Below, one piece after another: positions 15,402-36,042 of a DNA stretch of 36,042 nt. The notes beneath the pieces were generated by a model. That model had not been told where the DNA came from. It saw only the letters and a list, made by a program, of their open reading frames with translations, and did not search any database. The position numbers and the translations under genes were made by a program. Origin of the DNA: an uncultured Clostridia bacterium (GTDB taxonomy: Bacteria; Bacillota; Clostridia; Oscillospirales; Oscillospiraceae); the NCBI GenBank assembly GCA_947649615.1, contig CANSSG010000027.1:1-36042 (forward strand). Reading direction: 5' to 3'. Within the stretch, counting starts at the first letter, position 1. Every line of letters begins with the position of its first letter.

Positions 15402-15438
15402 TGTAGATTCCTCCTAGAATTTTGATCCGGTAATAAAC

Positions 15439-16248: not shown

Positions 16249-16307
16249 AGCGCGCTCCTGTATGTACGGGCGTACTTCCGCACACCCGCGCCATTTTATT
16301 GCTTATT

Positions 16308-16336
16308 ATTATAACACACACAAAACCTTCTATAAA
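16308..16336 (-). promoter_or_regulatory. Promoter candidate for amidohydrolase-dap operon
   Basis: On the minus strand, TTTATA (16336-16331), a 17-nt spacer and exact TATAAT (16313-16308). The -35 overlaps the last codons of the carrier gene. A small palindrome GTACG-GG-CGTAC (16264-16275) lies in the leader. Confidence 0.55.
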
Positions 16337-20231: not shown

Positions 20232-20542
20232 TGACTGAACCTAAACAATTTACTATGCCGTGGAAACGCTCTAATCTTTCCACTGATACTTCCACACATC
20301 CATTTTCTTTAAGCAACACTCCTTCCTGACAAAGAAGTTCCGGCTGTTCGAACCATCCAAGCACAGTTCTCCTGATATGGTTGACAACCTGGTGGCAGGG
20401 GTATTCTCCGTACCACTGGGACATACTGAGAATTTTGCCCACCACCCGGAAAAGTGGCGGCCTGTCCGTAGGCCGCCACTTTTCCGGGTGGTATCTCCTC
20501 AACGACAGAGAGAACCGCAAAAATCAATTTTCTCTCCATCAT
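20188..20542 (-). pseudogene. Frameshifted methylated-DNA-protein cysteine methyltransferase (MGMT-like)
   Basis: The 5' part, from ATG 20542, reads MMERKLIFAVLSVVEEIPPG then KVAAYGQ, the classical start of the MGMT DNA-binding domain (IPxGKVxTYGQ). The rest is in another frame: VVGKILSMSQWYGEYPCHQVVNH, with the PCHxV alkyl-acceptor motif, then GWFEQPELLCQEGVLLKENGCVEV. The roughly 13 residues expected between YGQ and VGK are replaced by one arm of a perfect inverted repeat, with a net loss of about 20 nt that breaks the frame. Similarity also ends soon after CVEV, near 20255. An active enzyme would repair O6-alkylguanine; this copy should be dead. It shows that the segment is decaying. Confidence 0.7.
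20441..20492. repeat. Perfect 23-bp inverted repeat inside the MGMT-like pseudogene
   Basis: The left arm (20441-20463, starting ACCACCCGGAAAAG) and right arm (20470-20492, ending CTTTTCCGGGTGGT) are exact reverse complements around a 6-nt loop, GTCCGT. The right arm, read on the minus strand, is the true coding sequence for IPPGKVAA; the left arm is an inverted copy of it. No T-run follows on either side, so it is not a normal terminator. Confidence 0.9.
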
Positions 20543-20558
20543 AACAATTTGTCAATAG

Positions 20559-20867
20559 TCAAGAATCCTTCAACCACTGCTGATACTCCTCTAGCGTAAT
20601 TTTCCTGCCGTCACATTCCGCTTTCTTTTCTCTGGCCTTTTCGCTCCAGGCGTAGAATTCTTCCGCAGTAACGCGTCCAGCCTTGATCCAGGCAAAGGGC
20701 CGGTTTACAGGGTAATTGAATAAGGAAAAGAATACCGACCGGTCTGCGACGGCTTGGTGGCGAAAGCCCTGTAGTAACGGACGGGCCCCTTGCCCCCAGC
20801 CCATCTGGCATTGTAATTTTTGTAGAATAAAGATGCCGGTTCCTGTGCACATATACAAGAAATTCAA
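20559..20867 (-). pseudogene. Gene fragment with a conserved-looking acidic C-terminus
   Basis: An open frame whose last about 50 residues look protein-like: NRPFAWIKAGRVTAEEFYAW, then SEKAREKKAECDG and KITLEEYQQWLKDS, a helical, charged end. The N-terminal part (MNFLYMCTGTGIFI...) reads like non-coding sequence and there is no SD, so this is likely the 3' end of a broken gene. I do not recognise the family; tails of this kind occur in mobile-element proteins, but this is only an impression. The promoter of the importer operon lies just beyond its 5' side, in divergent orientation. Confidence 0.35.
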
Positions 20868-20894
20868 CTCACTGTTAAATTTTTTGATATGCTA

Positions 20895-20924
20895 TTGACA
20901 AATAGCAGGATTTACATGTATAAT
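20895..20924 (+). promoter_or_regulatory. Promoter of the peptide-importer operon
   Basis: Exact TTGACA (20895-20900), an 18-nt spacer and exact TATAAT (20919-20924). The predicted start is near 20931, at the edge of the operator-like palindrome, and the leader to ATG 21091 is about 160 nt. Confidence 0.85.
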
Positions 20925-20929
20925 CAACA

Positions 20930-20967
20930 AAAATTAACTATTAGTTAATTAATCTATAGTTAATTTT
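20930..20967. promoter_or_regulatory. Operator-like palindrome and half-site at the importer promoter
   Basis: AATTAACTA-T-TAGTTAATT (20932-20950) is a perfect 19-bp palindrome lying on the predicted transcription start. A further TAGTTAATT (20957-20965) repeats the right half 15 nt downstream, so AAAATTAACTAT (20930-20941) also pairs with ATAGTTAATTTT (20956-20967). The position suggests repression; the regulator is not identified, the XRE-cupin protein at 34128 being one candidate. Confidence 0.6.
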
Positions 20968-21090
20968 GCGGAAAGGGGAGTGGCTGTGCGGCGCTATACA
21001 CATTAAAATGGCAGCGGGGAGGCGGTAAAGATGCTGTGAAAATGGAACGAGGAAGTGCGGGCCAAGAATAAAAATAGAGGGGATGTAAAT

Positions 21091-22620
21091 ATGAAAAAAA
21101 ACAAAACGTTGTTGCTCCTGCTGTTAGCTGTTGCCATGCTGCTGCCGGCCTGTTCCAGCAAATCTACTGAAGGTGGAGAAAAAATCAAGGACACCGTGGT
21201 GGTCGCAGTCAACAGGGATCCCCAGTCATTAGATCCTGCGGGCAGTTTGGTTGGTGTTGATAGCCGGATTCGTTACTGCCTGTACGAGTGCCTGCTGGCC
21301 TTCAATGACGATATGACCGTCAAACCTTGGCTGGCGGAAAGCTATGAGTACCTGGACGATACTACGATCCGATTTACGCTGCGCATGGACGTAAAGTTCC
21401 ACAACGGGGACCTTATGACCGCCGAAGATGTCATGTTTTCTCTGGAACGCGCACAACAGTCCTCTTTTTCTGGCGGTAATTTGGACTGTATCGACTTCGC
21501 ACAGTCTTCCATTATTGATGAGAAGACCATTGAGTTAAAATGTACCGAACCCTTTGCACCTCTGCTGGCCTCCTTGGCAGATTCCTACTATGCCTGCATC
21601 ACGCAGAAAAAGTGGGTGGAAGAGCACGGGCCGGACATCAGCGACGCACCTATGGGAACCGGGCCTTTTCAGTTCAAAGAAAGATATCCTGGCGACCGTA
21701 TTGAACTGGAGCGGTTTGACGGCTATTGGGGCCAGAAAGCAAAATTCAAAAACCTGACCTGGCGCGTTATTGTAGAGGCCGCCACCCGTGCCATCGAAGT
21801 GGAGACAGGAGGCGTGGATATTGCGCAAACCTTGGATGCGCAGGACGTCAAACGGCTGGAGTCCGGGGATAAGGTCCGGTTGGAATACATCTATATGCCT
21901 TCTGTAGGCAATATCATTGTTAACAGCTCCAAGGAACCGTTCAAGGATAAACGGGTCCGTCAGGCCATTGCTTGGGCGTTAGATATGGATGCGATTAATG
22001 AAGCCCTGTGGATGGGCATCCAGCCAGTGGGCAAGAGCGTGATCGCGGAAACTGTGGTGGGCTTTTATGACGGGCTGCCCCCTTATAGCCAAGATGCTGA
22101 AAAAGCAAAGGCCCTCCTGGCGGAAGCCGGATATAAAGATGGCTTTGCATGCCAGTTGGATGTTGCCGAGGAAGCGACAGCGGTCAATTTGGCTGAGATG
22201 GTGAAAAACCAGCTAGCAGATGTGGGGATTGCAATTACCATCAACGTCTATGATGCCACGACTACAAACCAGCGGCGGCTGAGCGGAGAGTTTGACTTGT
22301 CCTATGGTACATGGGGGTCCTCCAACGGGGACCCGGATAGCGCGATCTACCCAGAGCACCATTCCTCCCGTATAGGCGTTTCCAATACGTGGTTTGGCGA
22401 TCCGGAAGTAGATAAGTATCTGGAGCTGGAACGCGCCACGATAGAGCCGGAACAGCGCAAGGAATATCTTAAGCAGGTTCAGATATTGCTCCATGACCAG
22501 TGCCCGTGGATATATGTTACGCAGCTGGTGTTTGTTGATGCTGTGGGGAAGAATGTGGTGGGCTATGACCCGGTTGCCACCACATGGGTGCGTTACAACG
22601 AACTATATGTGACACAATAA
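21091..22620 (+). CDS. Peptide ABC transporter substrate-binding lipoprotein (SBP_bac_5)
   Basis: The start is ATG 21091 after AGAGGGGATG; an in-frame extension to 21055 lacks the signal-peptide layout. The 509-residue protein has a lipoprotein signal (MKKNKTLLLLLLAV, lipobox LPAC, lipidated Cys21) and then the family-5 fold: DPQSLDPAGSLVG, VKPWLAESYEYLDD, TIRFTLRMDVKFHNGDLMTAEDVMFSLER, GTGPFQFKE and VRQAIAWALDMDAI. It captures oligo- or dipeptides (or nickel/glutathione-like ligands in some relatives) outside the membrane and passes them to the permeases encoded at 25818 and 26771. First gene of the operon. The 248 nt after it, with several hairpins, may uncouple its higher expression from the genes that follow. 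Confidence 0.95.
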   Translation: MKKNKTLLLLLLAVAMLLPACSSKSTEGGEKIKDTVVVAVNRDPQSLDPAGSLVGVDSRIRYCLYECLLAFNDDMTVKPWLAESYEYLDDTTIRFTLRMDVKFHNGDLMTAEDVMFSLERAQQSSFSGGNLDCIDFAQSSIIDEKTIELKCTEPFAPLLASLADSYYACITQKKWVEEHGPDISDAPMGTGPFQFKERYPGDRIELERFDGYWGQKAKFKNLTWRVIVEAATRAIEVETGGVDIAQTLDAQDVKRLESGDKVRLEYIYMPSVGNIIVNSSKEPFKDKRVRQAIAWALDMDAINEALWMGIQPVGKSVIAETVVGFYDGLPPYSQDAEKAKALLAEAGYKDGFACQLDVAEEATAVNLAEMVKNQLADVGIAITINVYDATTTNQRRLSGEFDLSYGTWGSSNGDPDSAIYPEHHSSRIGVSNTWFGDPEVDKYLELERATIEPEQRKEYLKQVQILLHDQCPWIYVTQLVFVDAVGKNVVGYDPVATTWVRYNELYVTQ

Positions 22621-22656
22621 CTGGCGGCGCACCTTGGCGCGATCAGGGGAGCCTAT

Positions 22657-22849
22657 GCTGGGACGAGCGCCGGAAGCCCGTCCCAGCCGGCTTGGGGGAG
22701 ATGGTGAGAGCCGGCAGACGAACTCCGTTTTCCCTTTGATGCTGCATTCGCCGGCACACTGCGAAAACAGTTGGCGGCTGCCCGCATGCAGCGGCAGAAA
22801 AAATTTTTATCGTGGTGTTACACGACGCTGGGCCGTATTCTGCGGCCCT
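22657..22849 (+). other. Hairpin-rich intercistronic region, possible attenuator
   Basis: No gene is supported between 22621 and 22868. The stretch contains GCTGGGACG (22657-22665) / CGTCCCAGC (22679-22687), an imperfect GCTGC/GCAGC stem followed by A- and T-runs near 22798-22809, and GGGCCG (22830-22835) / CGGCCC (22843-22848) just ahead of the next gene. Partial termination or 3'-end protection of the binding-protein mRNA would give the usual excess of lipoprotein. Confidence 0.4.
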
Positions 22850-22868
22850 ATGAAAGGATAGATATTGT

Positions 22869-23759
22869 ATGAAAAAATTATCGGTAATACAAGCAGATAA
22901 TATTACGCTCGGCCTTGCACTGATTTACCTGTATATGGGAAAAAATATCTGCGAGACCTTCGGGATCGAAGGGGAGTCGGCCGTACGGCGTGGTTTGGCA
23001 GAATATGCCGCCACCCGTGGCTCTGACCTGCGAAAAAAGCACCAGGCGTTAGGAATGAAAACTAATTTGAAGAATTTCTTTTATTACGGCTCCAATCCCT
23101 ACAGCGAGGCATCCTTTGTCAACCACATGGGCCATGTTACAGAGGAGGAGGACGTACGGCAGACTACATATTGCCCCTTCGTGGAAGAGATGATCCGGCG
23201 GGGCCAGCGCCGGCTGGCGGTCACATACTGTGAAGAAGTCCACCCGCCTCTATGGCAGTCTTATGCGCCTACAGCTATTGTCAACCTGGGTAAGCATCTG
23301 GCGCAGGAGGGGAGCGACCGCTGCCTGTTCGATGTGTTCCTACGCCCCGGGCGTATGACGGCGGAGCAGCGGAAAGAGTGTTTCGAAGCGTATGATCCGG
23401 ACTTCAAAGGCGACCGCCGGGAGGAGTACATTACGCCGGATTCCAAAACCGGCAATTGCGCTATGACCATAATCATGGCGGCGTCTCTTTATCGGAGCTG
23501 CACAGAGGCATTCGGTGCGGATGCGGTTCCTGTATTGGAGAAAGGCGCAGAGGAGGCGCTGGCCGACTATATTCAGGTGCTTCGTACCTGTGCCGGGAAA
23601 CTGCAAGTGCCGTTTGACCAAGCATTCGTTGCGGAAAACTATGTATTCAGTTCCACTCTGGAAGAAGACGCCGCCTGGGAGGAATTTGCAGACGAGGAAA
23701 TTCGTGCGTTTGCACGGCGCTGCATCTACGATAAGTTCCATGCGCTGGCCGGCGTATAG
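22869..23759 (+). CDS. L-2-amino-thiazoline-4-carboxylate hydrolase-like protein
   Basis: A 296-residue soluble protein, ATG 22869 with a modest SD (AAAGGATAG). It resembles the ATC-hydrolase family (PF14196): an N-terminal helix pair with ALIYLYMGKNICETFGIEGESAVRRGLAEYAATRG, then TYCPFVEEMI with conserved Cys-Pro, VTYCEEVHPPLWQSYAP, and the LAQEGSDRCLFDVF element. In Pseudomonas the founder enzyme opens the thiazoline ring of 2-amino-2-thiazoline-4-carboxylate to N-carbamoyl-cysteine; most family members are uncharacterised. There is no signal peptide. The location between importer genes and peptidases suggests that it acts on something taken up by the importer. Family assignment is by motif layout and moderately sure; substrate unknown. 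Confidence 0.65.
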   Translation: MKKLSVIQADNITLGLALIYLYMGKNICETFGIEGESAVRRGLAEYAATRGSDLRKKHQALGMKTNLKNFFYYGSNPYSEASFVNHMGHVTEEEDVRQTTYCPFVEEMIRRGQRRLAVTYCEEVHPPLWQSYAPTAIVNLGKHLAQEGSDRCLFDVFLRPGRMTAEQRKECFEAYDPDFKGDRREEYITPDSKTGNCAMTIIMAASLYRSCTEAFGADAVPVLEKGAEEALADYIQVLRTCAGKLQVPFDQAFVAENYVFSSTLEEDAAWEEFADEEIRAFARRCIYDKFHALAGV

Positions 23760-23791
23760 GCAGGCAATCCCTGTACAGAAAGGAGCGACGT

Positions 23792-25798
23792 ATGCAAATG
23801 GAGAAATTGCGCATAAAGGACTTTACAGATTACCGGTTCCTATCAGGGCTTTGCTTTTCCCCCTCTGGGGAAAAAGCTGCATTTTTTAGCCGAAAAGCCA
23901 ACTTAGGAACCAATGGGTACGACCTTCACCTTCACCTGTGCCATGTACACGACGGTACAGTGGAATTGCTGCTGGAGAATATTGCCGCAGACTTTTTCTG
24001 CTGGGAGGATGATGATACGCTGCTGGTGCCCTTGCTTGCGACAGAGGAAGAACGGCGGACAGTGGCAAGCGGGGAACTGCTCACTTCCTTCTATCGCTTA
24101 GATGTCAAAACAAAAGCTTGTACACACAGTTTTTCTGTGCCGACAAATGCGCATATGATCCAAAAGCTGGCGGAGGGGAAGTATTTGCTGCGGTCCTGGT
24201 TTAATGCCTGCCGGCCGGATGTGGAACACGCCAGCGGGGAGGAAAAGGAACGCCTGCTGAAAAAAGTCCAGGATGATTCGCAGTATGAGATTCTCGATGA
24301 GATACCCTTTTGGTGGGACAGGACCGAATTCACCAACAAGCGGCGCAACCGGTTATATACTTACGACCTTGCCTCCGGGGCGCTGCATGCAGTTACGGAC
24401 CCGCTCTTTGACGCAGTCCACCTGGCAGTGTCCAAGGATGGCAGGAAGGTGGCCGTGGCAGGGCAGTGGTTCGACAGCAAGCGGCTGATAGAGGATGGCA
24501 TCTATCTGCACGACTTGGCAACTGGGGAGGTGTCCGTTTTAGTAGAGAAGGGGCTTATCCGGATCTGCGGCATGGACATCGCCGGAGACCGCGTCCTCTT
24601 TGCGGGCACGGAAATGCGGCGGCATGGCATGTATGAAAATCCTCAATTTTATGAAGTAGGCTTTGACGGCGGGGAATACCGCCTGGTTCGCAGCTACGAC
24701 CGCAGCATTGGCGACATGGTGGTTACAGATTGTAAATTCGGTGGCGGCTGCATCTGCAAGGCAATGGGGGAGGCACTGTATTTCCTGTCTACAGAGCGGT
24801 ATTCCACGGTCCTGCGCCGTTTGAATAAGGATGGTACGATTGATGATTTGTCCGCTGAAAATGGGGCGGTTAACTTTTTTGACATTAGCGGGAACCACGC
24901 TGTTTATGCCGCCATGCGCGGGCTGGGGCTTCAGGAGTTGTATCTGCTGGACCTAAATACGGAGAAAGAGACCAGGCTAACGAACCTGAACGAATCCTGC
25001 CTGTCCTGCAAAACGCTCTCCCCTTATGAGCATTTCACCTTTCAAAACACTGATGGGGTCGAGCTGGACGGCTGGGTGCTCAGGCCGGTGGATTTTCGAG
25101 AAGACAGGCGCTATCCTTGTATTCTGGATATTCACGGCGGGCCGCCGGGCGCCTACGGCGAGGTGTTTCTCCATGAGATGCAGTGCTGGGCCAATGAGGG
25201 GTTTTTTGTTTGCTTCAGCAACCCCAGAGGCGGCGAGGGGCGGGGAAACGCCTTTATGGATATTCGGGGCAGGTGGGGCGAGGAGGATTACCGTGATTTG
25301 ATGGAATTCATGGACCAGGTCTTGATACGGTATCCATCTGTAGACGCCCAACGCTTGGGCGTGACCGGTGGGTCCTATGGCGGGTATATGACGAATTGGA
25401 TCATCGGGCATACGGACCGGTTCCGGGCTGCGGCAGCGCAACGCTCAGTTTCCAACCTGATTTCTATGGTGGGGCACTCCGGTTCCGGTTATACTTACAC
25501 CCTGGACCAGATAAACGCCGGTTTTTGGGAAGGGGTTGGCATAGGCTGGTACCACTCGCCGCTGAAGTATGCGAAGAATGCCGTCACACCTACGTTGTTC
25601 ATCCATTCCGACCGGGACCGGGACTGCGCCCTCTCCGAGGGGCTGCAAATGTTTACTGCCCTAAAGATGGTAGGCTGTGAGGCGCGGATGTGCATCTTCA
25701 AGGATGAATGCCATGATTTGAGCCGGACCGGGCGGCCTATGCAGCGGATCCGCCGCCTGGAGGAAATCACGCGTTGGTTCCACAAGCATCTGGATTAG
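23792..25798 (+). CDS. S9-family serine peptidase (prolyl oligopeptidase/acylaminoacyl-peptidase type)
   Basis: ATG 23792 follows AAAGGAGCG. The 668-residue protein has an N-terminal beta-propeller-like region (about 1-400, with blade-like repeats such as YRFLSGLCFSPSGEKAAFFS and HLAVSKDGRKVAVAGQ) and a C-terminal alpha/beta-hydrolase domain beginning near FTFQNTDGVELDGWVLRP. The catalytic triad is GGSYGGYM (Ser528), HSDRDRDC (probably Asp609) and CHDLSRTG (His641). The propeller restricts substrates to short peptides. No signal peptide, so it works in the cytoplasm, probably on imported oligopeptides, removing Pro-containing or blocked N-terminal residues. The next gene starts 19 nt later. 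Confidence 0.93.
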   Translation: MQMEKLRIKDFTDYRFLSGLCFSPSGEKAAFFSRKANLGTNGYDLHLHLCHVHDGTVELLLENIAADFFCWEDDDTLLVPLLATEEERRTVASGELLTSFYRLDVKTKACTHSFSVPTNAHMIQKLAEGKYLLRSWFNACRPDVEHASGEEKERLLKKVQDDSQYEILDEIPFWWDRTEFTNKRRNRLYTYDLASGALHAVTDPLFDAVHLAVSKDGRKVAVAGQWFDSKRLIEDGIYLHDLATGEVSVLVEKGLIRICGMDIAGDRVLFAGTEMRRHGMYENPQFYEVGFDGGEYRLVRSYDRSIGDMVVTDCKFGGGCICKAMGEALYFLSTERYSTVLRRLNKDGTIDDLSAENGAVNFFDISGNHAVYAAMRGLGLQELYLLDLNTEKETRLTNLNESCLSCKTLSPYEHFTFQNTDGVELDGWVLRPVDFREDRRYPCILDIHGGPPGAYGEVFLHEMQCWANEGFFVCFSNPRGGEGRGNAFMDIRGRWGEEDYRDLMEFMDQVLIRYPSVDAQRLGVTGGSYGGYMTNWIIGHTDRFRAAAAQRSVSNLISMVGHSGSGYTYTLDQINAGFWEGVGIGWYHSPLKYAKNAVTPTLFIHSDRDRDCALSEGLQMFTALKMVGCEARMCIFKDECHDLSRTGRPMQRIRRLEEITRWFHKHLD

Positions 25799-25817
25799 CA
25801 CTGATGGAGGTGATACG

Positions 25818-26774
25818 GTGCATAGGTACATTTTGAAACGGCTTCTCATGCTGATCCCCGTGCTGCTGGGCGTATCCCTCACGGTGTTCGCGCTGCTCTA
25901 TTTCTCACCTGGGGATGTAGTAGATTCCATCGTTGCCCAGGGCGGCGTGTACTCGGAGGAAGATGCCGCACAACTTCGTGAGGAGTTTGGCTTAAATAAG
26001 CCGTTCTTTATACAATACCTTTCATACATTAAGGGAATTGTCTTGCATTTTGACTTTGGCACATCTTATTTAACCAAACGTTCCGTTACCGCAGAAATAT
26101 TAGACCGTTTCCCAACGACAGTGCTGCTCGCTGTCCTGGGTATCGGCATCGCCTTTGCGATTGGCGTTCCGGCAGGCATCCTGTCTGCAACCCGGCAGTA
26201 TTCCATGTTTGACAACATCGTCACCCCCATTTCTCTGTTAGGCGTTTCAATGCCTGGCTTCTGGTTTGGCCTTATGCTCATCATTCTCTTCTCGGTCAAA
26301 CTGGAATGGCTTCCGGCGTCGGGCTTTTACGGGCCGAAGTACTGGATTCTGCCAGCCCTGACCATTGGCTTTAGCGCTGCGGCGTTTATCATGCGTATGA
26401 CGCGGTCATCCATGCTGGAGGTCATCCGGCAAGACTACATCCGCACCGCCAGGGCCAAAGGGCAGAGCGAACGGATCATCATCACAAAACACGCGCTGAA
26501 AAACGCGCTCATTCCAATCATCACCTCCACAGGCCTCCAGTTTGGCTTTATGCTGGGCGGGTCAATTCTGGCGGAGTCCGTATTTGCGATTTCCGGACTA
26601 GGGAAACTGATACTGGATGGTATTAAGGCGCGCAACTATCCTGTCGTGCAGGGCGGCATCCTGTTTATCGCTTTTGTATTCAGCTTTGTCAATTTGCTGG
26701 TGGATGTAATCTATGCATATGCAGACCCGCAGATCAAATCCCAATATGTGCGGAAGAGGAGGAGGGACAAATGA
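25818..26774 (+). CDS. Peptide ABC transporter permease, DppB/OppB type
   Basis: The start is GTG 25818, behind a strong GGAGGTGA. The 318-residue membrane protein shows about six transmembrane segments: RYILKRLLMLIPVLLGVSL opens it as in DppB, with an external loop (DSIVAQGGVYSEEDAAQLR). The cytoplasmic coupling motif is RTARAKGQSERIIITKHALKNALIPI (EAA-type), which contacts an ATPase subunit. Together with the protein at 26771 it forms the channel for peptides delivered by the lipoprotein. The stop overlaps the next start by 4 nt. Assignment to the peptide/nickel permease family is secure; ligand specificity is not readable. Confidence 0.95.
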   Translation: MHRYILKRLLMLIPVLLGVSLTVFALLYFSPGDVVDSIVAQGGVYSEEDAAQLREEFGLNKPFFIQYLSYIKGIVLHFDFGTSYLTKRSVTAEILDRFPTTVLLAVLGIGIAFAIGVPAGILSATRQYSMFDNIVTPISLLGVSMPGFWFGLMLIILFSVKLEWLPASGFYGPKYWILPALTIGFSAAAFIMRMTRSSMLEVIRQDYIRTARAKGQSERIIITKHALKNALIPIITSTGLQFGFMLGGSILAESVFAISGLGKLILDGIKARNYPVVQGGILFIAFVFSFVNLLVDVIYAYADPQIKSQYVRKRRRDK

Positions 26775-27640
26775 GAAAAGGAAATGGGGAAAAGAGGAAG
26801 GACGGCCTATGGACAGATGCGGCCAAACGCTTCCGCAAGAACAAGCTGGCTATGGCCGGTCTCGTTATGCTGGCTATCTTAATCCTCTGCGCTCTTTTTG
26901 CAAACTATATTGCGCCCTTCCACTACGATGAGCAGAATCTACCGGCGGCTTTCGAGAGTCCAAGCCTGCGGCATTTGATGGGGACTGACAATCTGGGCCG
27001 GGATATTTTCAGCCGGATCATATATGGGACGCGCACTTCCTTGTCCATCGCGCTGGTCGCAGTACTGGTGGCAACCTTGGCCGGCGGTCTCATGGGGGCT
27101 GTGGCGGCCTTCTATGGCGGCGTTCTGGACAACGTCATCATGAGGTTCCTGGATGTGTTCCTGGCCATTCCCTCCACGCTGCTGGCAATTGCTATAGCGG
27201 CTGTGCTGGGGCCAGGTGTTACCAATACGGTGCTGGCCATTACGATTGGACAACTGCCGGGCCTGGCCCGTATTGTACGCGCCACGGTCCTGTCCATCAA
27301 GGGCGAGGAGTACATTCGCGCCGCCAGATCCATCGGTGCGGGAAACATGCGGATTATCGGACTCCATATCCTGCCCAATGCGATGGCGCCGATTATTGTA
27401 CAAGCGACGCTATACGTGGCTTCTGCGATCCTGTCAATATCTTCCCTAAGCTTTATCGGGCTTGGCATTCAACCGCCTACGCCGGAGTGGGGCAGCATGC
27501 TGTCCGCCGGACGCGCCTATATCCGCGATTACTGGTTCATTGTAGCATTTCCGGGACTAGCCATTATGGCGACCATTTTTGCATTCAATTTGATTGGCGA
27601 CGGCCTGCGGGATGCGTTGGATCCGCGGCTGAAAAACTGA
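26771..27640 (+). CDS. Peptide ABC transporter permease, DppC/OppC type
   Basis: A 289-residue membrane protein beginning with a charged cytoplasmic tail (MRKGNGEKRKDG...) and the FRKNKLAMAGLVMLAILILCALF first helix typical of DppC. The N-terminal OppC_N region contains HLMGTDNLGRDIFSRIIYGTR, and the EAA loop is EEYIRAARSIGAGNMRIIGLHILPNA. The end, FNLIGDGLRDALDPRLKN, is the family hallmark. It pairs with the DppB-type permease and shares a 4-nt overlap with it. Two ATPase genes follow after 15 nt, completing the importer. Confidence 0.95.
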   Translation: MRKGNGEKRKDGLWTDAAKRFRKNKLAMAGLVMLAILILCALFANYIAPFHYDEQNLPAAFESPSLRHLMGTDNLGRDIFSRIIYGTRTSLSIALVAVLVATLAGGLMGAVAAFYGGVLDNVIMRFLDVFLAIPSTLLAIAIAAVLGPGVTNTVLAITIGQLPGLARIVRATVLSIKGEEYIRAARSIGAGNMRIIGLHILPNAMAPIIVQATLYVASAILSISSLSFIGLGIQPPTPEWGSMLSAGRAYIRDYWFIVAFPGLAIMATIFAFNLIGDGLRDALDPRLKN

Positions 27641-27655
27641 CGGGAGGCGTATGGA

Positions 27656-28636
27656 ATGGAAAAGGATACATTGCTTGCGGTCCGCGGCCTTACCATACAG
27701 TACGAGACGGACAGCGGCGTGGTGCATGCGGTAAACGGCCTGGACATGGAACTCCGCCATGGAGAGACCTTGGGGCTGGTAGGAGAGACCGGCGCAGGAA
27801 AAACTACGGCTGCGTTGGGGATTATGCGGCTGCTGCCGGAACCGCCGGCCAAGATACAGTCAGGGGAAATACTTTTCAAGGGGGAGGACGTCCTGAAAAA
27901 ATCGGATGCAGAGCTGCGCTCCATGCGCGGGAAAAAAGTTGCCATGATTTTTCAGGATCCCATGACCAGCTTAAACCCGGTGCTGACAGTGGGGGAACAG
28001 ATTGCGGAGGTTATTCAACTCCACGAAAGGAAAAGCGCGGCGGAAGCCCATGTGAAAGCCCAGGAAATGTTGCGCCTGGTGGGCATCCCACCGGAGAGGT
28101 TCTCTGAATATCCGCACCAGTTCTCCGGCGGGATGAAGCAGCGGGTTGTCATTGCCATTGCCTTGGCCTGTGACCCGGAACTGCTGATTGCCGACGAGCC
28201 TACCACCGCTTTGGATATGACCATCCAGGCCCAGGTGTTGGAGCTAATGCGGTCTCTTCGCAAGGAACTTAATACATCCATGATCTTAATCACGCATGAT
28301 CTGGGGGTGGTGGCGGAGATGTGCGACCGGGTCGCTATCGTGTATGCCGGCGAAATTGTGGAGCAGGGGACGGCCCATGATGTATTCAATGATACAAAAC
28401 ATCCCTATACGATGGGCCTGTTTGGCGCTCTCCCGGATTTGGAGGGGAGCGAGGAGCGCCTGCACCCCATTCCTGGGTTGATGCCGGATCCCACTCACCT
28501 GCCGGAGGGCTGCCGCTTCAGCCCCAGATGTCCCAAGAGGACGGATGCCTGTGTCCAGACTCTTCCCAAAAATGTGGAGACCGTGCCGGGGCACAGTGTC
28601 CGCTGTTTGTTGTACGAGCACGGGATGCAGGGATAG
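27656..28636 (+). CDS. Peptide ABC transporter ATP-binding protein, DppD/OppD type
   Basis: ATG 27656 after GGAGGCG. The 326-residue cytoplasmic ATPase has Walker A GETGAGKT (43-50), a Q-loop in [12 protein letters not shown], signature FSGGM (156-160), Walker B LLIADE (176-181), and the H-loop [10 protein letters not shown]. The C-terminal oligopeptide-transporter extension contains [24 protein letters not shown] with cysteines; comparable Cys patterns bind an iron-sulfur cluster in some DppD/OppD proteins. It drives uptake together with the DppF-type subunit encoded 9 nt downstream. All canonical residues are intact. Confidence 0.95.
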
Positions 28637-28645
28637 GAGGCTGAT

Positions 28646-29590
28646 ATGGAAGCTATTTTAGAAGCCAAGAATATACGAAAATACTTTAAGACGCCCAAGG
28701 GGATGCTGCATGCGGTGGATGATGTCAGCTTTTCGATTCCCAAGGGAAAAACCCTGGGTGTGGTAGGAGAATCTGGGTGTGGGAAATCAACCCTTGGCCT
28801 GCTGCTCCTGCATCTGGAATCGTTGACAGGCGGGCAGATATTTTTTGAGGGCAGGGACATTACCAATCCTGGGAAGAGGAGGTTAAAAGAACTGCGCTGT
28901 TCCATGCAGATGATTTTCCAGGACCCGTTTTCTTCTTTGAACCCCAGGATGTCTGTAAGCGAAATCATCAGCGAACCATTCCGCATCTACAAGATTTGCA
29001 GAAGCCCGGCGGAGATGGAGAAAAAGGTGGACCAACTGATGGACCTGGTCGGCCTGGCGCCGCGCCTGCGGCAGGCTTACCCGCACGAACTGGATGGGGG
29101 CAGGCGGCAGCGGGTAGGCATTGCCAGGGCGCTGGCCATGGCGCCCAAATTTATCGTCTGCGATGAGCCGGTTTCTGCGTTGGATGTTTCTATTCAAGCG
29201 CAGATATTGAATTTGATGCAGGACCTTCAGAAAGAGATGGGCTTGACCTATATCTTCATTACGCACGACCTCTCCGTCGTCCGGCATATCTCAGACGAGA
29301 TATGTGTCATGTACCTGGGAAAGATCGTAGAGCAGGCGCGGGCGCAAGAACTGTTCCGGAACCCGCTCCATCCGTATACCCAGGCGCTTCTGTCCGCCAT
29401 CCCACGGCCCAAAGTGCCTCCGGCAACAGAACGCATTATCCTTAAAGGCGAGCTTGCCTCCCCCATTGAGCCGAAGCCCGGATGCCGCTTTGCCCCGCGC
29501 TGCATCCATGCTCAGGATCGCTGCTTCCAGGAAAATCCGGAGCGCAGGGAGATTGGCCAGGGCCGCTTCGCCTGTTGTCACTGTATATAG
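28646..29590 (+). CDS. Peptide ABC transporter ATP-binding protein, DppF/OppF type, variant signature
   Basis: A 314-residue ATPase with ATG 28646 after ATAGGAGG. Walker A is GESGCGKST (41-49), the Q-loop lies in IFQDPFSSLNPR, Walker B is FIVCDE (169-174), and the H-loop is ITHDLSVVRH. The ABC signature reads LDGGRRQR (149-156) instead of LSGGQRQR: the usual serine is Asp150 and the Gln is Arg153. Variants of this kind occur in clostridial DppF-like proteins, so it may still be functional, perhaps as the weaker of two nucleotide sites. The C-terminus has GCRFAPRCIHAQDRC. It is followed within 14 nt by the racemase gene. Confidence 0.94.
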   Translation: MEAILEAKNIRKYFKTPKGMLHAVDDVSFSIPKGKTLGVVGESGCGKSTLGLLLLHLESLTGGQIFFEGRDITNPGKRRLKELRCSMQMIFQDPFSSLNPRMSVSEIISEPFRIYKICRSPAEMEKKVDQLMDLVGLAPRLRQAYPHELDGGRRQRVGIARALAMAPKFIVCDEPVSALDVSIQAQILNLMQDLQKEMGLTYIFITHDLSVVRHISDEICVMYLGKIVEQARAQELFRNPLHPYTQALLSAIPRPKVPPATERIILKGELASPIEPKPGCRFAPRCIHAQDRCFQENPERREIGQGRFACCHCI

Positions 29591-29603
29591 GGAAAGGCAG
29601 CGT

Positions 29604-30608
29604 ATGCTTACAGAAAAGTGTATCTTTGCGGTAGACACCCATACCGCCGGAGAACCAACCAGGATTGTGATAGGCGGCCTGGGAATGATACCCGGGGATA
29701 CTATTTTGGAAAAGAAACAATACCTGGAGCGGGAACTGGACAGCCTGCGCATTATGCTCATGCATGAACCACGGGGGCATCGCGACATGTTTGGCGCGGT
29801 TATCCTGCCGCCCTGTGACCCGCGCGCGGATGCAGGGATCGTATTCATGCACAGCGGCGCTTACCAGGAGATGTGCGGGCATGGCTGTATTGGCGCTGTG
29901 ACGGCGCTGCTGGAACTTGGCATTGTGAAAGGAAGAGAGGGCAGGAATACCGTGGTCCTGGATACGCCTGTAGGCTTAGTCCATGCGGAAGCGGAGATGG
30001 GCTGCGGCCATGTGACATGCGTTTATATCCAGAACGTCCCTTCCTTTTTATACCGGGAGGGATTGGAGGTGGAGTTGCCCTCATACGGCATGTTGCCCGT
30101 TTCCATTGCTTTCGGCGGGAACTTCTTTGCCTTGGTAGACATCAGCAGGTTATCGCTGGAAATTGCCCCACAGCGGGTAGAACAGCTTGTCGGCCTGGGG
30201 ATGGAGGTGCTGGGCCAGGTCAGATGCATGGAACCGGCCATACATCCGCTGCTGCCGGAGGTGCGGGGCGTGGCGATGGCGGAACTGTATACGAAATCCC
30301 CCACGCCCGGGGTTGATGCACGAAACATCGTTGTATTTGGGAACCGCCAGTTTGACCGTTCGCCATGCGGGACTGGCACCAGCGCCAAATTGGCCGCTCT
30401 TTACCGCAGGGGAGAACTCCGGCTGGGACAGCCTTATACCCATGAGAGCGTGATCGGCACTGTATTTCGTGGACGGGCGGTGGAGGAGACCTGGGTTGGG
30501 CTGTTCCCCGCTGTCATCCCGGAGATTCAAGGCGAGGCATTCATCACGGGGATCCACCAGTTTGTCCGCCACCCGGACGATTTGGCCGGCAAAGGATTCT
30601 TAGTGTAG
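29604..30608 (+). CDS. Proline racemase/hydroxyproline 2-epimerase-family enzyme
   Basis: The start is ATG 29604, with a modest SD (GGGAAAGG). The 334-residue protein follows the family from VDTHTAGEPTRIVIGG through HEPRGHRDMFGAV. The two catalytic cysteines are both present: Cys91 in EMCGHGCIG and Cys255 in DRSPCGTGTSA. Enzymes with Cys at both positions racemise proline or epimerise 4-hydroxyproline, whereas trans-3-hydroxyproline dehydratases have Thr at one of them, so a racemase or epimerase is predicted. Which substrate cannot be decided from sequence. It is cytoplasmic and fits an operon that processes Pro- or Hyp-containing peptides, for instance to feed D-proline into Stickland fermentation. 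D-proline reductase genes are not in the window. Confidence 0.9.
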   Translation: MLTEKCIFAVDTHTAGEPTRIVIGGLGMIPGDTILEKKQYLERELDSLRIMLMHEPRGHRDMFGAVILPPCDPRADAGIVFMHSGAYQEMCGHGCIGAVTALLELGIVKGREGRNTVVLDTPVGLVHAEAEMGCGHVTCVYIQNVPSFLYREGLEVELPSYGMLPVSIAFGGNFFALVDISRLSLEIAPQRVEQLVGLGMEVLGQVRCMEPAIHPLLPEVRGVAMAELYTKSPTPGVDARNIVVFGNRQFDRSPCGTGTSAKLAALYRRGELRLGQPYTHESVIGTVFRGRAVEETWVGLFPAVIPEIQGEAFITGIHQFVRHPDDLAGKGFLV

Positions 30609-30648
30609 CGGCAGGGGAAAGTTGGGAAAGATAGTGAGGAATAAAAAT

Positions 30649-31686
30649 ATGGCGACCCTTGACAAGCAGATACAAGAAATACACCAGTCGAACATCATTG
30701 TGGATGCGCACCTGGACTTATGCATGTACATCGACCGGCAGCGCAGCACCGGGAGAAGAAAGGTAATCCAGCGGGATTACCTGGAGGACATAAGGAAGGG
30801 CGGCGTCAATGTGATCGTTTCCGCTATTTTTGTGGAGGATTATGGCTCCGGGGAGACTGTGCTGCGCCAGGCTATGGACCAAATCGGAGCATTGTACGCA
30901 GAACTGCGGGAAAGCCCCGGCATCTTTGAGGTGTGCTGTACCTATGATGAGATTCAGCGGACTGTGGCAGCAGGAAAACTCGCCATTTTGCTCTCCTTCG
31001 AAGGCGTGGAGCCATTGGGGAAGAACGTGGAGCTGCTGCCGCTGTTTTATCAGCTGGGGGTCCGAGGGGTAGGCCTTGCTTGGAGCCGGCGCAACTTTGC
31101 CTGTGACGGCGCCATGTATACAAATACGCCCTACAATCTGGGGACCGGGCTGACAGAATTCGGCGTGGACCTGGTACGAGAGACGGAGCGGCTGGGCATG
31201 TTCCTGGACATCTCCCATCTAAACGATGCCGGCGTGGACGACATACTGTCACTTACCCGTGGCCCTGTGCTTGCCAGCCACTCAAATTGCCGGGCCATCA
31301 ACCCTACCAGCCGGAACCTGAGCGATGGCCATATTCGTCAAATTGCCGCACGAGGGGGTGTGGTCGGCATCAATACCGTCAGCGCCATTGTCAGCGACCA
31401 GCCAGGCGGAGCAACCATGGAGACGCTGCTACAGCACATCGACCATCTTGTGGATGTGGCTGGGATTGACCATGTGGGGCTGGGCTTTGACTTTGCGCTG
31501 AAAATCATGCCGGATGCTTACATCCAAGTCAATGGCTACCAGCAGAAGGTATTTGATGTCATCAACGGATACGGAGATTTACCAGCATTGACCCAGGCCC
31601 TTTTGGAGCATGGCTATGGGGCGGAGGATATCCGGAAGATTTACGGCGTCAACTTTATGCGTATGTACCAGCAGGTACTCTCTTAA
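30649..31686 (+). CDS. M19-family zinc dipeptidase
   Basis: ATG 30649 follows GTGAGGA; an alternative in-frame TTG at 30622 would add 9 residues. The 345-residue protein is a membrane-dipeptidase/renal-dipeptidase homolog: VDAHLDL supplies H21 and D23, SFEGVEPL gives bridging E118, DISHLND H190, ASHSNCRAI H211, and GLGFDF D281, the complete binuclear zinc site. Bacterial M19 enzymes cleave dipeptides, tolerate a D-residue at the C-terminal position, and can open beta-lactams and related rings. No signal peptide or GPI/TM segment, so it is cytoplasmic. Its place after the racemase suggests that it splits dipeptides left by the larger peptidases. Confidence 0.93.
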   Translation: MATLDKQIQEIHQSNIIVDAHLDLCMYIDRQRSTGRRKVIQRDYLEDIRKGGVNVIVSAIFVEDYGSGETVLRQAMDQIGALYAELRESPGIFEVCCTYDEIQRTVAAGKLAILLSFEGVEPLGKNVELLPLFYQLGVRGVGLAWSRRNFACDGAMYTNTPYNLGTGLTEFGVDLVRETERLGMFLDISHLNDAGVDDILSLTRGPVLASHSNCRAINPTSRNLSDGHIRQIAARGGVVGINTVSAIVSDQPGGATMETLLQHIDHLVDVAGIDHVGLGFDFALKIMPDAYIQVNGYQQKVFDVINGYGDLPALTQALLEHGYGAEDIRKIYGVNFMRMYQQVLS

Positions 31687-31718
31687 CGGGGCTATTGTAC
31701 AATAGGGAGTTGAGCGTA

Positions 31719-33830
31719 ATGGAAGAAAACCGCTATATATATTATCGTGCCGGCGTACCGGTGGGGAGATTCTCCATCTCCCCAGACGCAATACGATGCA
31801 GCGTCCGGTCTTTTGAAACCCTAATGTGGCAGGCGGAGGAGCCATTCTCAATGGACATGGCGCCCTTTGACAGGGAACTGGACCTGCGTCTGCCGGAGGC
31901 GCTGGCCTGTGTACAGCGGGGCGCATTTGACACGGCCCGATATGAGAAGTCCTGCCAGATAGAGGCGGAAATCCAGGGAGAAAGGAAACGAGGGACTTTG
32001 TGGGCGCAGAGAGAGGGACATTTTCCCCTGGATGTGCTGACCTGCGATGGCCGGATCGCCGCCCTGTATGACAATGAGCGCAATTATATTGGCCTGCTGG
32101 TGCGGGAAGGCTATGAGACCATGACGCCGCAAGCGGCTTTTTCTGATCCGCTACTTTCCAAAGGGAACCGGGGCATGAAAAAGCTCGGTGGATTCATGGT
32201 CCCCATGCGGGATGGGGTGTGCCTGGCAACCAATGTATTCCTGCCCGCAGATTACCGGGATGGAGAGCGCCTGCCCACCGTGCTCGTCCGCACCTGCTAC
32301 GGCAAGGACAGTGCAAAGCAGTTCTTTGTCTTCACCCACTACGGATATGCAGTGGCGGCACAAGACACACGGGGGCGGGAGGAGTCGGAAGGCTGCTGGC
32401 AGCCCATTGTTAATGAAATGGATGACGGGGATGACACTTTGGACTGGATTTCGGGCCAGTCATGGAGCGATGGCCGCGTGGGTATGATCGGCGCATCCTA
32501 CCTGGCAATCGTCCAGTGGGCAGCGGCGGCCAGCGGCAATCCCCATTTGAAGGCATTGATCAGTATGGTTACTGGCGGTGTTCCAATCTTTGACTTCCCT
32601 CATCGCGGCGGCGTTTTAAGTCCGGGAACCATTGCATGGGCCTTCGCCATGCGTAAGAAGTCATATTGCCCCCGGGATATGCTGCGGAAGGATTGGTCCC
32701 AGATTCTTCGCACACGGCCTATCCGGGATATACCAAAGAAGGGAATTGGAGAAGACATCCCCTTCTGGGACGAGTGGATGGGCCATGAGTTCTATGATGA
32801 GTATTGGCATAGGGCCAATTGGATGATGCGGCAGCATCAAATTGACGTGCCTTCCCTGTACATTTCCGGATGGTATGACGATGTGGGGGGCGGCACTATG
32901 CAGATGTGGGATATGAACCGCCGCAATGGACGGCGGAATCAGAAAATAGTCATTGGCGCATGGAAACACAAAATGAACGTCTCAAGGGATATACACGGCA
33001 TCTGCTACGGGGCTGACTCCCTGCGGTACGACCTTTTTCCGCTCTATCTGCGCTGGTATGACCGCCATCTCAAAGGCATTCCCAACCATATTGAAGATGC
33101 GCCGCCGGTGGAGTATTACATTATCGGCGAGGGCGCTTGGCGCAACGCAGATGATTGGCCGCCGCCAGAGACGAAAATGCACCCCCTATACCTGCAAAGC
33201 GGCGGAAACGCCAATACCAGCCTTGGCGACGGTATGCTCTCCTGGCAGAGACCGGAGCGCGCCTGCGAGGATTGCTTCGCCTTTGACCCGCAGAACCCAG
33301 CGCCATTCTTGATTGATGTCAGCGAAAATGAGTGCATGGTTCCGGAAAACTATCGGGATGTGGAGTTGCGCCAGGATGTGTTGGTATATACCTCTGCACC
33401 GTTGGAACAGGAGTTGGTGATTGCTGGGGAGCCGGTAGCCGTGCTTTATGCTGCATCCGATGCCAAGGATACGGATTGGGTCGTGCGGCTGACGGATGTA
33501 GATGAGATGGGAAATTCTATCCGTATGTGCGACGGCATTGTACGCGCCAGGTTCCGCAAGTCTTTCATTGAACCCAAACTGCTGCTGCCAGGAGAGGTTG
33601 TACGCTATGAGATACCGCTAACCTGGATTGCCGGACGGTTCCAGAAAGGGCACCGGCTGCGGGTAGAGGTAGGTTCTGGGGCGGACTATTCTGTCTTTCC
33701 TAATCCCAACACCGGCCATTTGATGGCAGACGAAACCGAGTGGGTGATTGCTAACCAAACTGTTTACAGCGGCGGCATGCATCCCAGCCATATCCTGATC
33801 CCTGTTTTTCAAGAAGGGCCAAATAACTAG
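31719..33830 (+). CDS. S15/CocE-NonD-type alpha/beta hydrolase with a long N-terminal extension
   Basis: ATG 31719 follows GGGAG; an upstream in-frame TTG at 31695 has no SD. The 703-residue protein contains a CocE/X-Pro dipeptidyl-peptidase core starting near residue 158 (FMVPMRDGVCLATNVFLPADY). The nucleophile elbow GASYLA (Ser260) replaces the usual GxSYxG, and a conserved SGWYDDVGGG follows. The C-terminal jelly-roll domain contains TDVDEMGNSIRMCDGIVRARFR, GHRLRVEVG and PNTGH. Residues 1-157 have no domain I recognise and make the protein longer than typical CocE enzymes (about 550-600). The likely role is hydrolysis of an acyl, ester or X-Pro bond in the imported substrate. No signal peptide. 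Last gene of the operon. Confidence 0.88.
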   Translation: MEENRYIYYRAGVPVGRFSISPDAIRCSVRSFETLMWQAEEPFSMDMAPFDRELDLRLPEALACVQRGAFDTARYEKSCQIEAEIQGERKRGTLWAQREGHFPLDVLTCDGRIAALYDNERNYIGLLVREGYETMTPQAAFSDPLLSKGNRGMKKLGGFMVPMRDGVCLATNVFLPADYRDGERLPTVLVRTCYGKDSAKQFFVFTHYGYAVAAQDTRGREESEGCWQPIVNEMDDGDDTLDWISGQSWSDGRVGMIGASYLAIVQWAAAASGNPHLKALISMVTGGVPIFDFPHRGGVLSPGTIAWAFAMRKKSYCPRDMLRKDWSQILRTRPIRDIPKKGIGEDIPFWDEWMGHEFYDEYWHRANWMMRQHQIDVPSLYISGWYDDVGGGTMQMWDMNRRNGRRNQKIVIGAWKHKMNVSRDIHGICYGADSLRYDLFPLYLRWYDRHLKGIPNHIEDAPPVEYYIIGEGAWRNADDWPPPETKMHPLYLQSGGNANTSLGDGMLSWQRPERACEDCFAFDPQNPAPFLIDVSENECMVPENYRDVELRQDVLVYTSAPLEQELVIAGEPVAVLYAASDAKDTDWVVRLTDVDEMGNSIRMCDGIVRARFRKSFIEPKLLLPGEVVRYEIPLTWIAGRFQKGHRLRVEVGSGADYSVFPNPNTGHLMADETEWVIANQTVYSGGMHPSHILIPVFQEGPNN

Positions 33831-33832
33831 AG

Positions 33833-33862
33833 GGACGGCGGCACGGGTCCGTGCCGCCGTCC
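33833..33862 (+). terminator. Hairpin at the end of the peptide-importer operon
   Basis: A 14-bp stem, GGACGGCGGCACGG (33833-33846) / CCGTGCCGCCGTCC (33849-33862), beginning 2 nt after the stop codon. The following ACATGTTT is only a weak T-run. Confidence 0.7.
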
Positions 33863-34034: not shown

Positions 34035-34108
34035 TTGTGGTTGATTCACATTCCTACATATGATGTAAATAAATTGAACTTTTTAACAAATTGTTATCAC
34101 AACAAATT
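34035..34108 (+). promoter_or_regulatory. Promoter and possible operator of the XRE-cupin gene
   Basis: The AT-rich stretch 33863-34127 has no gene. TTGTGG (34035-34040), an 18-nt spacer and TATGAT (34059-34064) form a candidate promoter. TAACAA-A-TTGTTA (34084-34096) is a palindrome in the leader, and its AACAAATT half recurs at 34101-34108, 16 nt on. Palindrome plus repeated half-site echoes the layout at the importer promoter, but with different bases. Confidence 0.45.
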
Positions 34109-34127: not shown

Positions 34128-34745
34128 TTGATCAATTGTTCCTATCTGCGAAAGGTTAGGCAGTCCAGACATTATACACTCAACCAACTGAGCAAAGAAA
34201 CTGGCTATACCGCCAGCTTTCTTTCCCAGATTGAACGAGGGCTGAGAGAACCCTCGCTGACATCTCTGCGGAAGATTTCAGAGTGTCTTGGCGTTTCGCT
34301 GGTATCTTTTTTTATACAGCCAGAAGAACAGGCGGTGAAAGAACTCCCGGAAATATATACCGTGCAAGGACAGGATTATGGGATTGTTCGCAGAGGAGAG
34401 GGATTGCAGTTGGAGCTGCCGGATCTATCCATCCGCTGCCAGATGGTGACGCCGCCGTTGATTGCGTCGGACGGCCAGCGGCTTTTGCGGGGGTTCCTTT
34501 ATATTCTGCCGCCGGGAGAGTGGTGCTCAGAGAAGATGATTTCTCATTCTGAGGATGAATGTATCTATTGTTTGCAGGGGAAACTGCGCGTCTGTGTGGG
34601 ACAGGATGAAACTTTTTTGGATACCGGAGACTGTCTCTACATCAACGCAATGACTCTGCACAACTTTCAAAACTGTGGAACCGAGGATTGCGTTCAGCTA
34701 ACGTTTACGGTATCGGAAAAGATTGCGCCAGAGCATGGACAATGA
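34128..34745 (+). CDS. XRE-family regulator with C-terminal cupin domain
   Basis: The only start with a good SD (GAGGAG, 34115-34120) is TTG 34128. The 205-residue protein has an N-terminal HTH (SYLRKVRQSRHYTLNQLSKETGYTASFLSQIERGLREPSL, residues about 5-48) and a linker. A cupin beta-barrel (about 120-195) shows EWCSEKMISHSEDECIYCLQGKLRVCVG, DTGDCLYINAMTLHNF and VQLTF. XRE-cupin regulators usually sense a small metabolite in the cupin pocket and control a neighbouring transport or catabolic operon. Here it lies directly after the importer operon, in the same direction but with its own promoter, so it is the best candidate regulator of it. Ligand unknown. Confidence 0.9.
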   Translation: MINCSYLRKVRQSRHYTLNQLSKETGYTASFLSQIERGLREPSLTSLRKISECLGVSLVSFFIQPEEQAVKELPEIYTVQGQDYGIVRRGEGLQLELPDLSIRCQMVTPPLIASDGQRLLRGFLYILPPGEWCSEKMISHSEDECIYCLQGKLRVCVGQDETFLDTGDCLYINAMTLHNFQNCGTEDCVQLTFTVSEKIAPEHGQ

Positions 34746-35941: not shown

Positions 35942-36042
35942 AACCGCGCTTCCCTCATTGCTCATAAGCGTTTTCAAATTTTATGGGAATTGAAACTTTC
36001 TTTTATCCCGCACAGAAATTTCTTTGCCCAGTTGCACTTCGA

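Follow-up and report, generated by a model that had tools for sequence, protein, structure and literature searches.

Relation to described systems

Peptide importer operons that include enzymes for D-residue peptides are already known, as is evident from the ykfABCD genes of Bacillus, which are linked with dpp. To our knowledge, the DppABCDF operon of Escherichia coli contains no enzyme genes. The locus described here lies in a window (the whole stretch of DNA that was analysed, 36,042 nucleotides) from an uncultured Clostridia bacterium of the family Oscillospiraceae. It resembles the E. coli system in having a complete set of binding protein, two permeases and two ATPases, but OppA, DppB, DppC and DppF fell under the Dpp equivalog cut-offs in an NCBIfam scan of these four proteins. 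With ykf it shares, as that system is presented in the available text of PMC3305447, a peptide-transporter part and cytoplasmic enzymes for D-residue peptides, which in ykf include a dipeptide epimerase. However, ykf carries muropeptide-specific peptidases, whereas the window carries M19, CocE-type and S9C enzymes, a proline-type racemase and an XRE-cupin regulator.

Two further systems invite comparison. Like the ATC hydrolase of Pseudomonas, one window protein belongs to PF14196 and retains all three invariant cysteines, but it is longer, scores only 33 bits, and has neither an M20 amidohydrolase nor a hydantoin-type racemase adjoining it. The racemase shares with AsProR and the proline racemase superfamily a Cys/Cys pair and ProR-type ligand-site residues, but it lies under the ProR equivalog cut-off and its own genome has no detected D-proline reductase. 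A racemase of this kind beside peptidases and transporters is not new in itself, since one Bacilli cluster of the superfamily already has such neighbours in the accessible portion of PMC4113996. Among open-licence papers, judged by titles and the starts of abstracts, we recognized no description of the window's gene combination, of the common operator reported below or of the swapping of enzymes.

Organization of the operon

Ten genes, all on the plus strand between 21091 and 33830, constitute the operon (Table 1). Intergenic gaps were computed from reassigned start codons, including a racemase start corrected to ATG 29604, and range from −4 to 32 nt, except for 248 nt 3′ of OppA; with ATG 30649 as its start, M19 is preceded by a gap of 40 nt. 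The long gap folds only somewhat better than its shuffles (z −1.92; 7/200 equally good), and we make no structural claim for it. The hairpin directly 3′ of the S15 stop codon (13 pairs, 4-nt loop, z −4.66, 0/200 shuffles as good) is the likely operon end. The promoter is the only 12/12 match in the scanned 15.5 kb, where promoter-like sites overall occur at chance level (15 found versus a mean of 13.6 in shuffles).

An earlier note on this DNA had described an importer and five enzyme genes as one unit running from a promoter at 20895 to 33862. Both the unit and the promoter are confirmed, and the hairpin agrees with the end point. The short gaps that it reported were also found, the one behind OppA excepted. 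The XRE-cupin gene and the double operator are additions to its description.

Table 1. Features of the operon and of its putative regulator in the window
Feature	Position	Strand	Basis
Sigma-70-type promoter, TTGACA-18-TATAAT, 12/12	20895..20924	+	Promoter scan
Double operator, two TTAAC-N5-GTTAA-type palindromes 15 bp apart, 0 and 1 mismatch	20934..20963	+	Sequence scan
OppA/DppA-type substrate-binding lipoprotein (SBP_bac_5)	21091..22620	+	Family profile match, closest solved chains
ATC_hydrolase-like protein (PF14196, 33 bits; C102, C121, C152)	22869..23759	+	Pfam, alignment
S9C-type serine peptidase, probable carboxypeptidase, GGSYGG	23792..25798	+	Pfam, closest solved chain, motif
DppB-type permease	25818..26774	+	Pfam, NCBIfam
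DppC-type permease	26771..27640	+	NCBIfam
DppD-type ATPase	27656..28636	+	Pfam
DppF-type ATPase	28646..29590	+	Pfam, NCBIfam
Proline-racemase-superfamily enzyme, Cys/Cys, ProR-like Phe at ligand sites 1 and 5	29604..30608	+	Pfam, alignment
M19 dipeptidase (ATG 30649, or TTG 30622)	30649..31686	+	Pfam, closest solved chains
S15/CocE-type hydrolase, N-terminal extension of ~165 aa	31695..33830	+	Pfam, NCBIfam, closest solved chains
Hairpin 3′ of S15, probable operon end, weak T tract	33833..33862	+	Folding versus shuffles
Single operator-like site, 3 mismatches to the 15-bp site, upstream of the regulator gene	34083..34097	−	Sequence scan
XRE-cupin transcription regulator	34128..34745	+	Pfam, NCBIfam

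An operator common to other M19-S15 operons

The double operator begins 9 bp behind the −10 box, and its 30 bp recur at 27/30, 27/30 and 26/30 bases (3, 3 and 4 mismatches) in three loci from other genomes (L133, L135 and L136), each time upstream of M19 in an M19-DUF819-S15 operon. No further copy with fewer than eight mismatches was found in 1,618,197 bases (145 sequences, some overlapping). The exact TTAAC-N5-GTTAA sequence occurs nine times in 1,601,973 bases of loci outside the window, and seven of these occurrences are at cluster promoters: two each in L133, L135 and L136, and one in a Subdoligranulum variabile plasmid locus (L150). Sites with at most one mismatch are commoner, amounting to 46 in the same loci when the exact ones are included.

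In L133, L135, L136 and at the Dpp promoter of L150, the final base of the −10 box is also the first base of the first site (in L150 with one mismatch), and at the SBP5 promoter of L150 the site starts 5 bp behind that box. The divergent promoters of L150 each have a single site (0 and 1 mismatch) behind the −10 box; the double form was not found in this locus. A 1-mismatch site also lies 24 bp behind the −10 box of the epimerase promoter in locus L137. No site of this type was present in the scanned stretches of L144, L145, L134 and L080, and L144 has an XRE-cupin gene without the operator. Within its own genome the 15-bp site matches at one place within two mismatches, the reversed control pattern giving one match, and the viral contigs searched for the operator contained none.

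The promoter of the OppA-S15 operon is tied by these observations to the kind of operator that accompanies XRE-cupin/M19/S15 operons, and we infer that the XRE-cupin protein binds it. The existence of a dedicated regulator and of an operator common to M19-S15 operons of other families suggests a specific substrate class.

The S15 protein and its relatives

The S15 protein scores 380.6 bits on the CocE_NonD model TIGR00976 (cut-off 66.3) and only 61.2 bits against a cut-off of 642 on the best Xaa-Pro DPP model (PRK05371), which does not support assignment as PepX. Its closest solved chains are cocaine esterases, followed by alpha-amino acid ester hydrolases, and about 165 additional residues are located at its N terminus. 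Relatives that keep this extension were found in one of 200 family genomes (G074), five of 291 class genomes, two of 119 phylum genomes and one of 72,556 plasmid records, and these provide the nine neighbourhoods considered here, with the window's own genome not counted. Four further phylum matches begin at query residue 160 or later, and M19 was near none of the three of these whose neighbourhoods were inspected. Eight further plasmid matches begin at residue 154 or later, and no relative was found in the viral contigs searched.

Because S15 was the query, its presence in all nine neighbourhoods holds by construction. M19 adjoins S15 or lies one gene off in five (G282, G425, G204, G1062 and G1063, the last with an M19 only 26% identical to that of the window), and a dipeptide epimerase is near S15 in two (G230 and S. 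variabile). The two enzymes never occur together, and neither is present in G074 and G257. Of M19, the epimerase and DUF819, M19 alone was counted in the 20 control stretches, and it was absent from all of them. Also recurring are a DUF819 permease in five neighbourhoods (G282, G425, G204, G230 and G1062; Pfam for three, similarity for the rest), the XRE-cupin gene in five (G282, G204, G230, G1062 and S. variabile; G425 is not judgeable, since its contig begins just before M19) and a Dpp importer in one. The sample of nine loci is small, and both M19 and the enolase-type epimerases belong to widespread families.

The layout nearest to that of the window is found on the S. variabile plasmid record OY725877.1 (L150), which carries a divergent SBP5 gene, XRE-cupin, DppB, DppC, DppD, DppF, a dipeptide epimerase and S15, and thus a regulator, a full importer, a stereochemistry enzyme and the hydrolase; the record has no gene annotation under the S15 match. 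Its epimerase shares 50% identity with the G230 enzyme. Among solved proteins, the L137 epimerase comes nearest to dipeptide and L-Ala-D/L-Glu epimerases, and it falls under the NCBIfam cut-off (238.4 versus 500). In G1063, an ornithine-cyclodeaminase-family protein whose closest solved relative is a delta1-pyrroline-2-carboxylate reductase is encoded upstream of M19 and S15.

The cluster formed by XRE-cupin, M19, DUF819 and S15 (L133, L136 and L144, plus L135, where no regulator is visible) resembles the window in its regulator, M19 and S15, and in the double operator common to the window, L133, L135 and L136. Unlike the window, it has a DUF819 permease in place of the Dpp importer and no match to the ATC-like, S9 or racemase proteins. 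More broadly, homologues of these three proteins were found in none of the nine S15 neighbourhoods (tblastn at E 1e-8 with 40% or more of the query covered, a setting that a very remote ATC-like protein could escape), so that their place in any common pathway is argued from the window operon.

Other proteins of the operon

The S9 protein carries a GGSYGG motif and aligns over residues 3-667 of its 668 with the solved chain 7ep9 (552.6 bits), cited in the accessible part of PMC12871690 as the S9Cfn carboxypeptidase of Fusobacterium nucleatum. With both the motif and full-length similarity present, it is probably a carboxypeptidase of the S9C type. The closest solved chains of M19 are 3ly0 and 3fdg. 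Those of OppA are mixed, beginning with an ABC substrate-binding protein that has no named ligand (5u4o) and continuing with dipeptide- and heme-binding proteins, and its ligand is therefore not readable from sequence.

The racemase has catalytic Cys91 and Cys255 (numbered from its corrected start) within MCGH and SPCGTG motifs. Its closest solved relative is AsProR. In an alignment with a solved relative it has Phe at ligand sites 1 and 5 and Met, not His, at site 4. Under the ligand-site scheme set out in the available text of PMC4364671, our best guess at its specificity is ProR, and we call it ProR-like because its 395.8 bits are under the NCBIfam equivalog cut-off of 556. Action on thiazolidine carboxylate was also considered, but no positive evidence for it was seen; in one report, 0.5 mM of the proline analogue thiazolidine-4-carboxylate did not inhibit proline racemase in Trypanosoma cruzi extracts (PMC2645137).

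The ATC-like protein

This protein is a remote member of PF14196 (cut-off 28.1), longer than the Pfam domain and without an NCBIfam match. In an alignment with 32 chosen relatives, C102, C121 and C152 are the sole invariant columns (33/33). A single-sequence AlphaFold model has a mean pLDDT of 40.5, too low to be informative, a sequence search of the PDB gave only a chance-level match (E 0.24), and a single-sequence scan of genome contigs gave one short match (L012). The plasmids searched contained no relative. The long form occurs as tandem pairs in G016, G625, G641 and G606, and as a single copy in the window.

PF14196 is matched in 58 of 391 class genomes. We compared 44 stretches with ATC-like genes (4 + 20 + 20) with 20 control stretches, and found homologues of the racemase, M19 and S15 in none of either set; a conserved pairing of ATC-like gene and proline-type racemase was rejected on this count. 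An S9 homologue is present in 1/44 (controls 0/20) and SBP5/DppBC in 4/44 (controls 1/20), which indicates that ATC-like genes have no general association with importers. Of the 11 loci that come from the window's family, eight have M20, five have SDH_alpha (by Pfam in one locus), which we take to be CyuA-like, and four have a Dpp-type importer (L008, L010 and L064, and L059 by DppD/DppF), whereas the other 33 loci have M20 in one and SBP5/DppBC in one. ATC-like genes near importers therefore recur within the family, in company other than that in the window. These enrichments are only suggestive, because part of the reference set came from the very loci surveyed, the controls are mostly from other families (2/20 from the window's) and two of the 44 stretches (L071 and L072) come from one contig.

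Proposed function and alternatives

Taking together the observed genes and their order, the promoter, the common operator and the recurrence of regulator, M19 or epimerase, transporter and S15, we give an even chance to the reading that the genes form a single catabolic operon, under XRE-cupin control, for small peptides taken up by the cell, in which stereochemistry is the problem solved. While no inducer is bound, the XRE-cupin protein would block transcription by occupying the double operator that follows the −10 box, and binding of an inducer (a peptide, a peptide product or a cognate small molecule) to the cupin domain would release it. OppA and DppBCDF would import peptides, the S9C carboxypeptidase would shorten them, the CocE-type hydrolase would cleave an acyl, ester or amide link, M19 would cleave the L,L- or L,D-dipeptides thus produced, and proline or a close analogue would be interconverted between its D- and L-forms by the racemase. 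The ATC-like protein may serve as an accessory enzyme or as a small-molecule-binding protein that uses its three-cysteine site, both roles being possible in that the available text of PMC5847659 describes such a cluster as common to the ATC family, to V4R sensor domains and to a domain from methanogens.

M19 enzymes can cleave L,D-dipeptides, and also cleave ordinary L,L-dipeptides. Dipeptide epimerases turn L,D- into L,L-dipeptides, according to the accessible section of PMC3305447. Because M19 and the epimerase alternate near S15 (five versus two loci, never both) and both handle L,D-dipeptides, an L,D-dipeptide is the likely intermediate. The most economical intermediate would be a dipeptide containing a D-residue or an imino acid, a theme that the proline-type racemase fits, although two of the nine relatives have S15 with neither enzyme. 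If correct, this reading would tie swappable stereochemistry enzymes and importers to one hydrolase, a regulator and a conserved operator, and would offer a testable substrate class (dipeptides of unusual stereochemistry) for CocE-type enzymes that are left without an assignment in genome annotation. The operator and promoter would form a simple reporter for inducer screening.

The earlier note's view of a single unit for the uptake and intracellular cleavage of small peptides is supported, and its D-residue handling is a plausible theme given M19 or the epimerase near S15 in relatives, the substrates being presumed. Conservation of the gene set, proposed there as a check, was found in part: the exact set did not reappear, but one locus (L150) combines XRE-cupin, a Dpp importer, a stereochemistry enzyme and S15, and L133, L136 and L144 each combine XRE-cupin and S15 with M19 and a permease.

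General peptide scavenging for carbon and nitrogen, with the racemase and ATC-like gene as incidental passengers, is possible, if on the unlikely side. The S9C, M19 and Dpp families have a broad substrate range, and the exact gene combination recurs in none of the loci examined. However, the specific substrate class suggested by the dedicated regulator and common operator argues against scavenging, as does the alternation of M19 with a dipeptide epimerase, which fits a stereochemical task.

A bolder and rather unlikely proposal is that the extended CocE-type S15 marks a pathway not yet described, spread by horizontal transfer and controlled by XRE-cupin through TTAAC-N5-GTTAA, that opens conjugated or cyclic dipeptides (e.g. 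proline diketopiperazines or heterocyclised dipeptides) to give L,D-dipeptides. These would be resolved by interchangeable M19, dipeptide epimerase, ornithine-cyclodeaminase-family imine reductase or, in the window, proline-type racemase. Interchangeable DUF819 and Dpp importers would feed the pathway, to which the ATC-like protein of the window would add ring opening.

Recycling of peptidoglycan peptides such as L-Ala-D-Glu or related muropeptide fragments, in the manner of ykf, seems distinctly unlikely. A dipeptide epimerase does replace M19 in L137 and L150, that of L137 resembles L-Ala-D/L-Glu epimerases, and ykfABCD joins such an enzyme with a peptide-transporter part in the available text of PMC3305447. 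Nevertheless, neither a gamma-glutamyl endopeptidase nor an LD-carboxypeptidase was recognized among the window operon genes scanned, the proline-type racemase would have no role in such recycling, and CocE is no part of ykf.

We are very doubtful of the dismantling of thiazoline peptides as the core of the pathway, a reading taken from the earlier interpretation, in which the ATC-like protein would open the ring and the racemase would correct the thiazoline residue. The invariant cysteines are consistent with it, and M20, SDH_alpha and Dpp-type importers near family ATC-like genes recall the route from DL-ATC to cysteine outlined in the accessible part of PMC10821248. However, the window protein is a remote member in an operon without M20 or SDH_alpha, its cysteine cluster is common to V4R sensors, the thiazolidine-4-carboxylate report cited above counts against it, importers are not generally linked to ATC-like genes, and the proposed partners were missing both from the 44 ATC-like stretches (racemase, M19 and S15) and from the nine S15 neighbourhoods (ATC-like, racemase and S9). 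Least probable of all is the Pro/Hyp-rich peptide reading, with proline from host peptides racemised to D-proline for Stickland reduction, which the catalytic cysteines, the ProR-type Phe residues and the similarity to AsProR would suit, since PrdA was not found above its cut-off in the window's own genome (95.8% complete; best 44.6 versus 700 bits, in what we read as a glycine-reductase-type gene) and since S9 and S15, once thought to favour proline, are of the S9C (7ep9) and CocE (CocE_NonD) types.

Distribution and probable acquisition

The ATC-like gene is absent from 9/9 other listed genomes of the same genus, S15 from 3/3 and the racemase from 2/2. At E 1e-12, the ATC-like protein was matched in only one of 295 genomes of the order, its own, and the full set, ATC-like, S9C and racemase genes included, had no second occurrence in the loci examined. 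GC content drops at 19.5 kb, with values of 0.56-0.64 to the left of this point and 0.45-0.57 to the right. Because the exact set was found nowhere else and lies in the low-GC stretch, the operon was probably acquired by gene transfer; loss of the genes from other members of the genus and mis-assembly of the contig are the alternatives. Across family genomes, with the window's own included, matches were found to the ATC-like protein in 12/400 (E 1e-8; 5/150 in another search), to the racemase in 5/150 (E 1e-50) and to S15 in 2/200 (E 1e-60).

Surroundings of the peptide-import operon

At 20312-20542 lies a start-like fragment of a 6-O-methylguanine-DNA methyltransferase-type domain, which scores under the family cut-off and is apparently broken, stop codons being present in the longer stretch. 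Taken with the shift in GC content at 19.5 kb, the fragment may be a scar left by the insertion. One more TTAAC-N5-GTTAA-type site, with 1 mismatch, is located at 20864-20878, immediately upstream of the -35 box of the operon promoter. The glycosyl transferase gene resides in low-GC DNA next to the operon. The consecutive carrier, Amidohydro_2 and DHDPS-family genes possibly constitute a second catabolic operon.

Features of the window around the peptide-import operon
Feature	Coordinates	Strand	Basis
DcuC-type carrier, Amidohydro_2 and DHDPS-family genes, consecutive	14511-17721	-	family match
6-O-methylguanine-DNA methyltransferase-type domain, start-like fragment	20312-20542	-	DNA_binding_1, 19.9 bits (cut-off 27 bits)
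Glycosyl transferase family 11 gene	35069-35977	-	family match

ATC-like genes in other genomes

Among the loci from other genomes that carry ATC_hydrolase-family (ATC-like) genes, tandem pairs encoding long ATC-like proteins are present in L008, L058, L059 and L060, and these perhaps form two-subunit proteins. At 5155-7164 of L011, the ATC-like domain forms the end of a longer protein and is preceded there by a different domain; an SDH_alpha-like gene and M20 come after this gene. In L062 and L063, a transporter gene and an EutA/arylmalonate-decarboxylase-family (Asp/Glu racemase-like) gene, a call made by a family scan covering L062's gene only, adjoin the ATC-like gene, with M20 nearby; this neighbourhood looks like a cysteine-derivative route. 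A gene for a fumarate-reductase-type flavoprotein, assigned by a family scan of L009's gene, is found near the ATC-like gene in L009, L010, L061 and L100.
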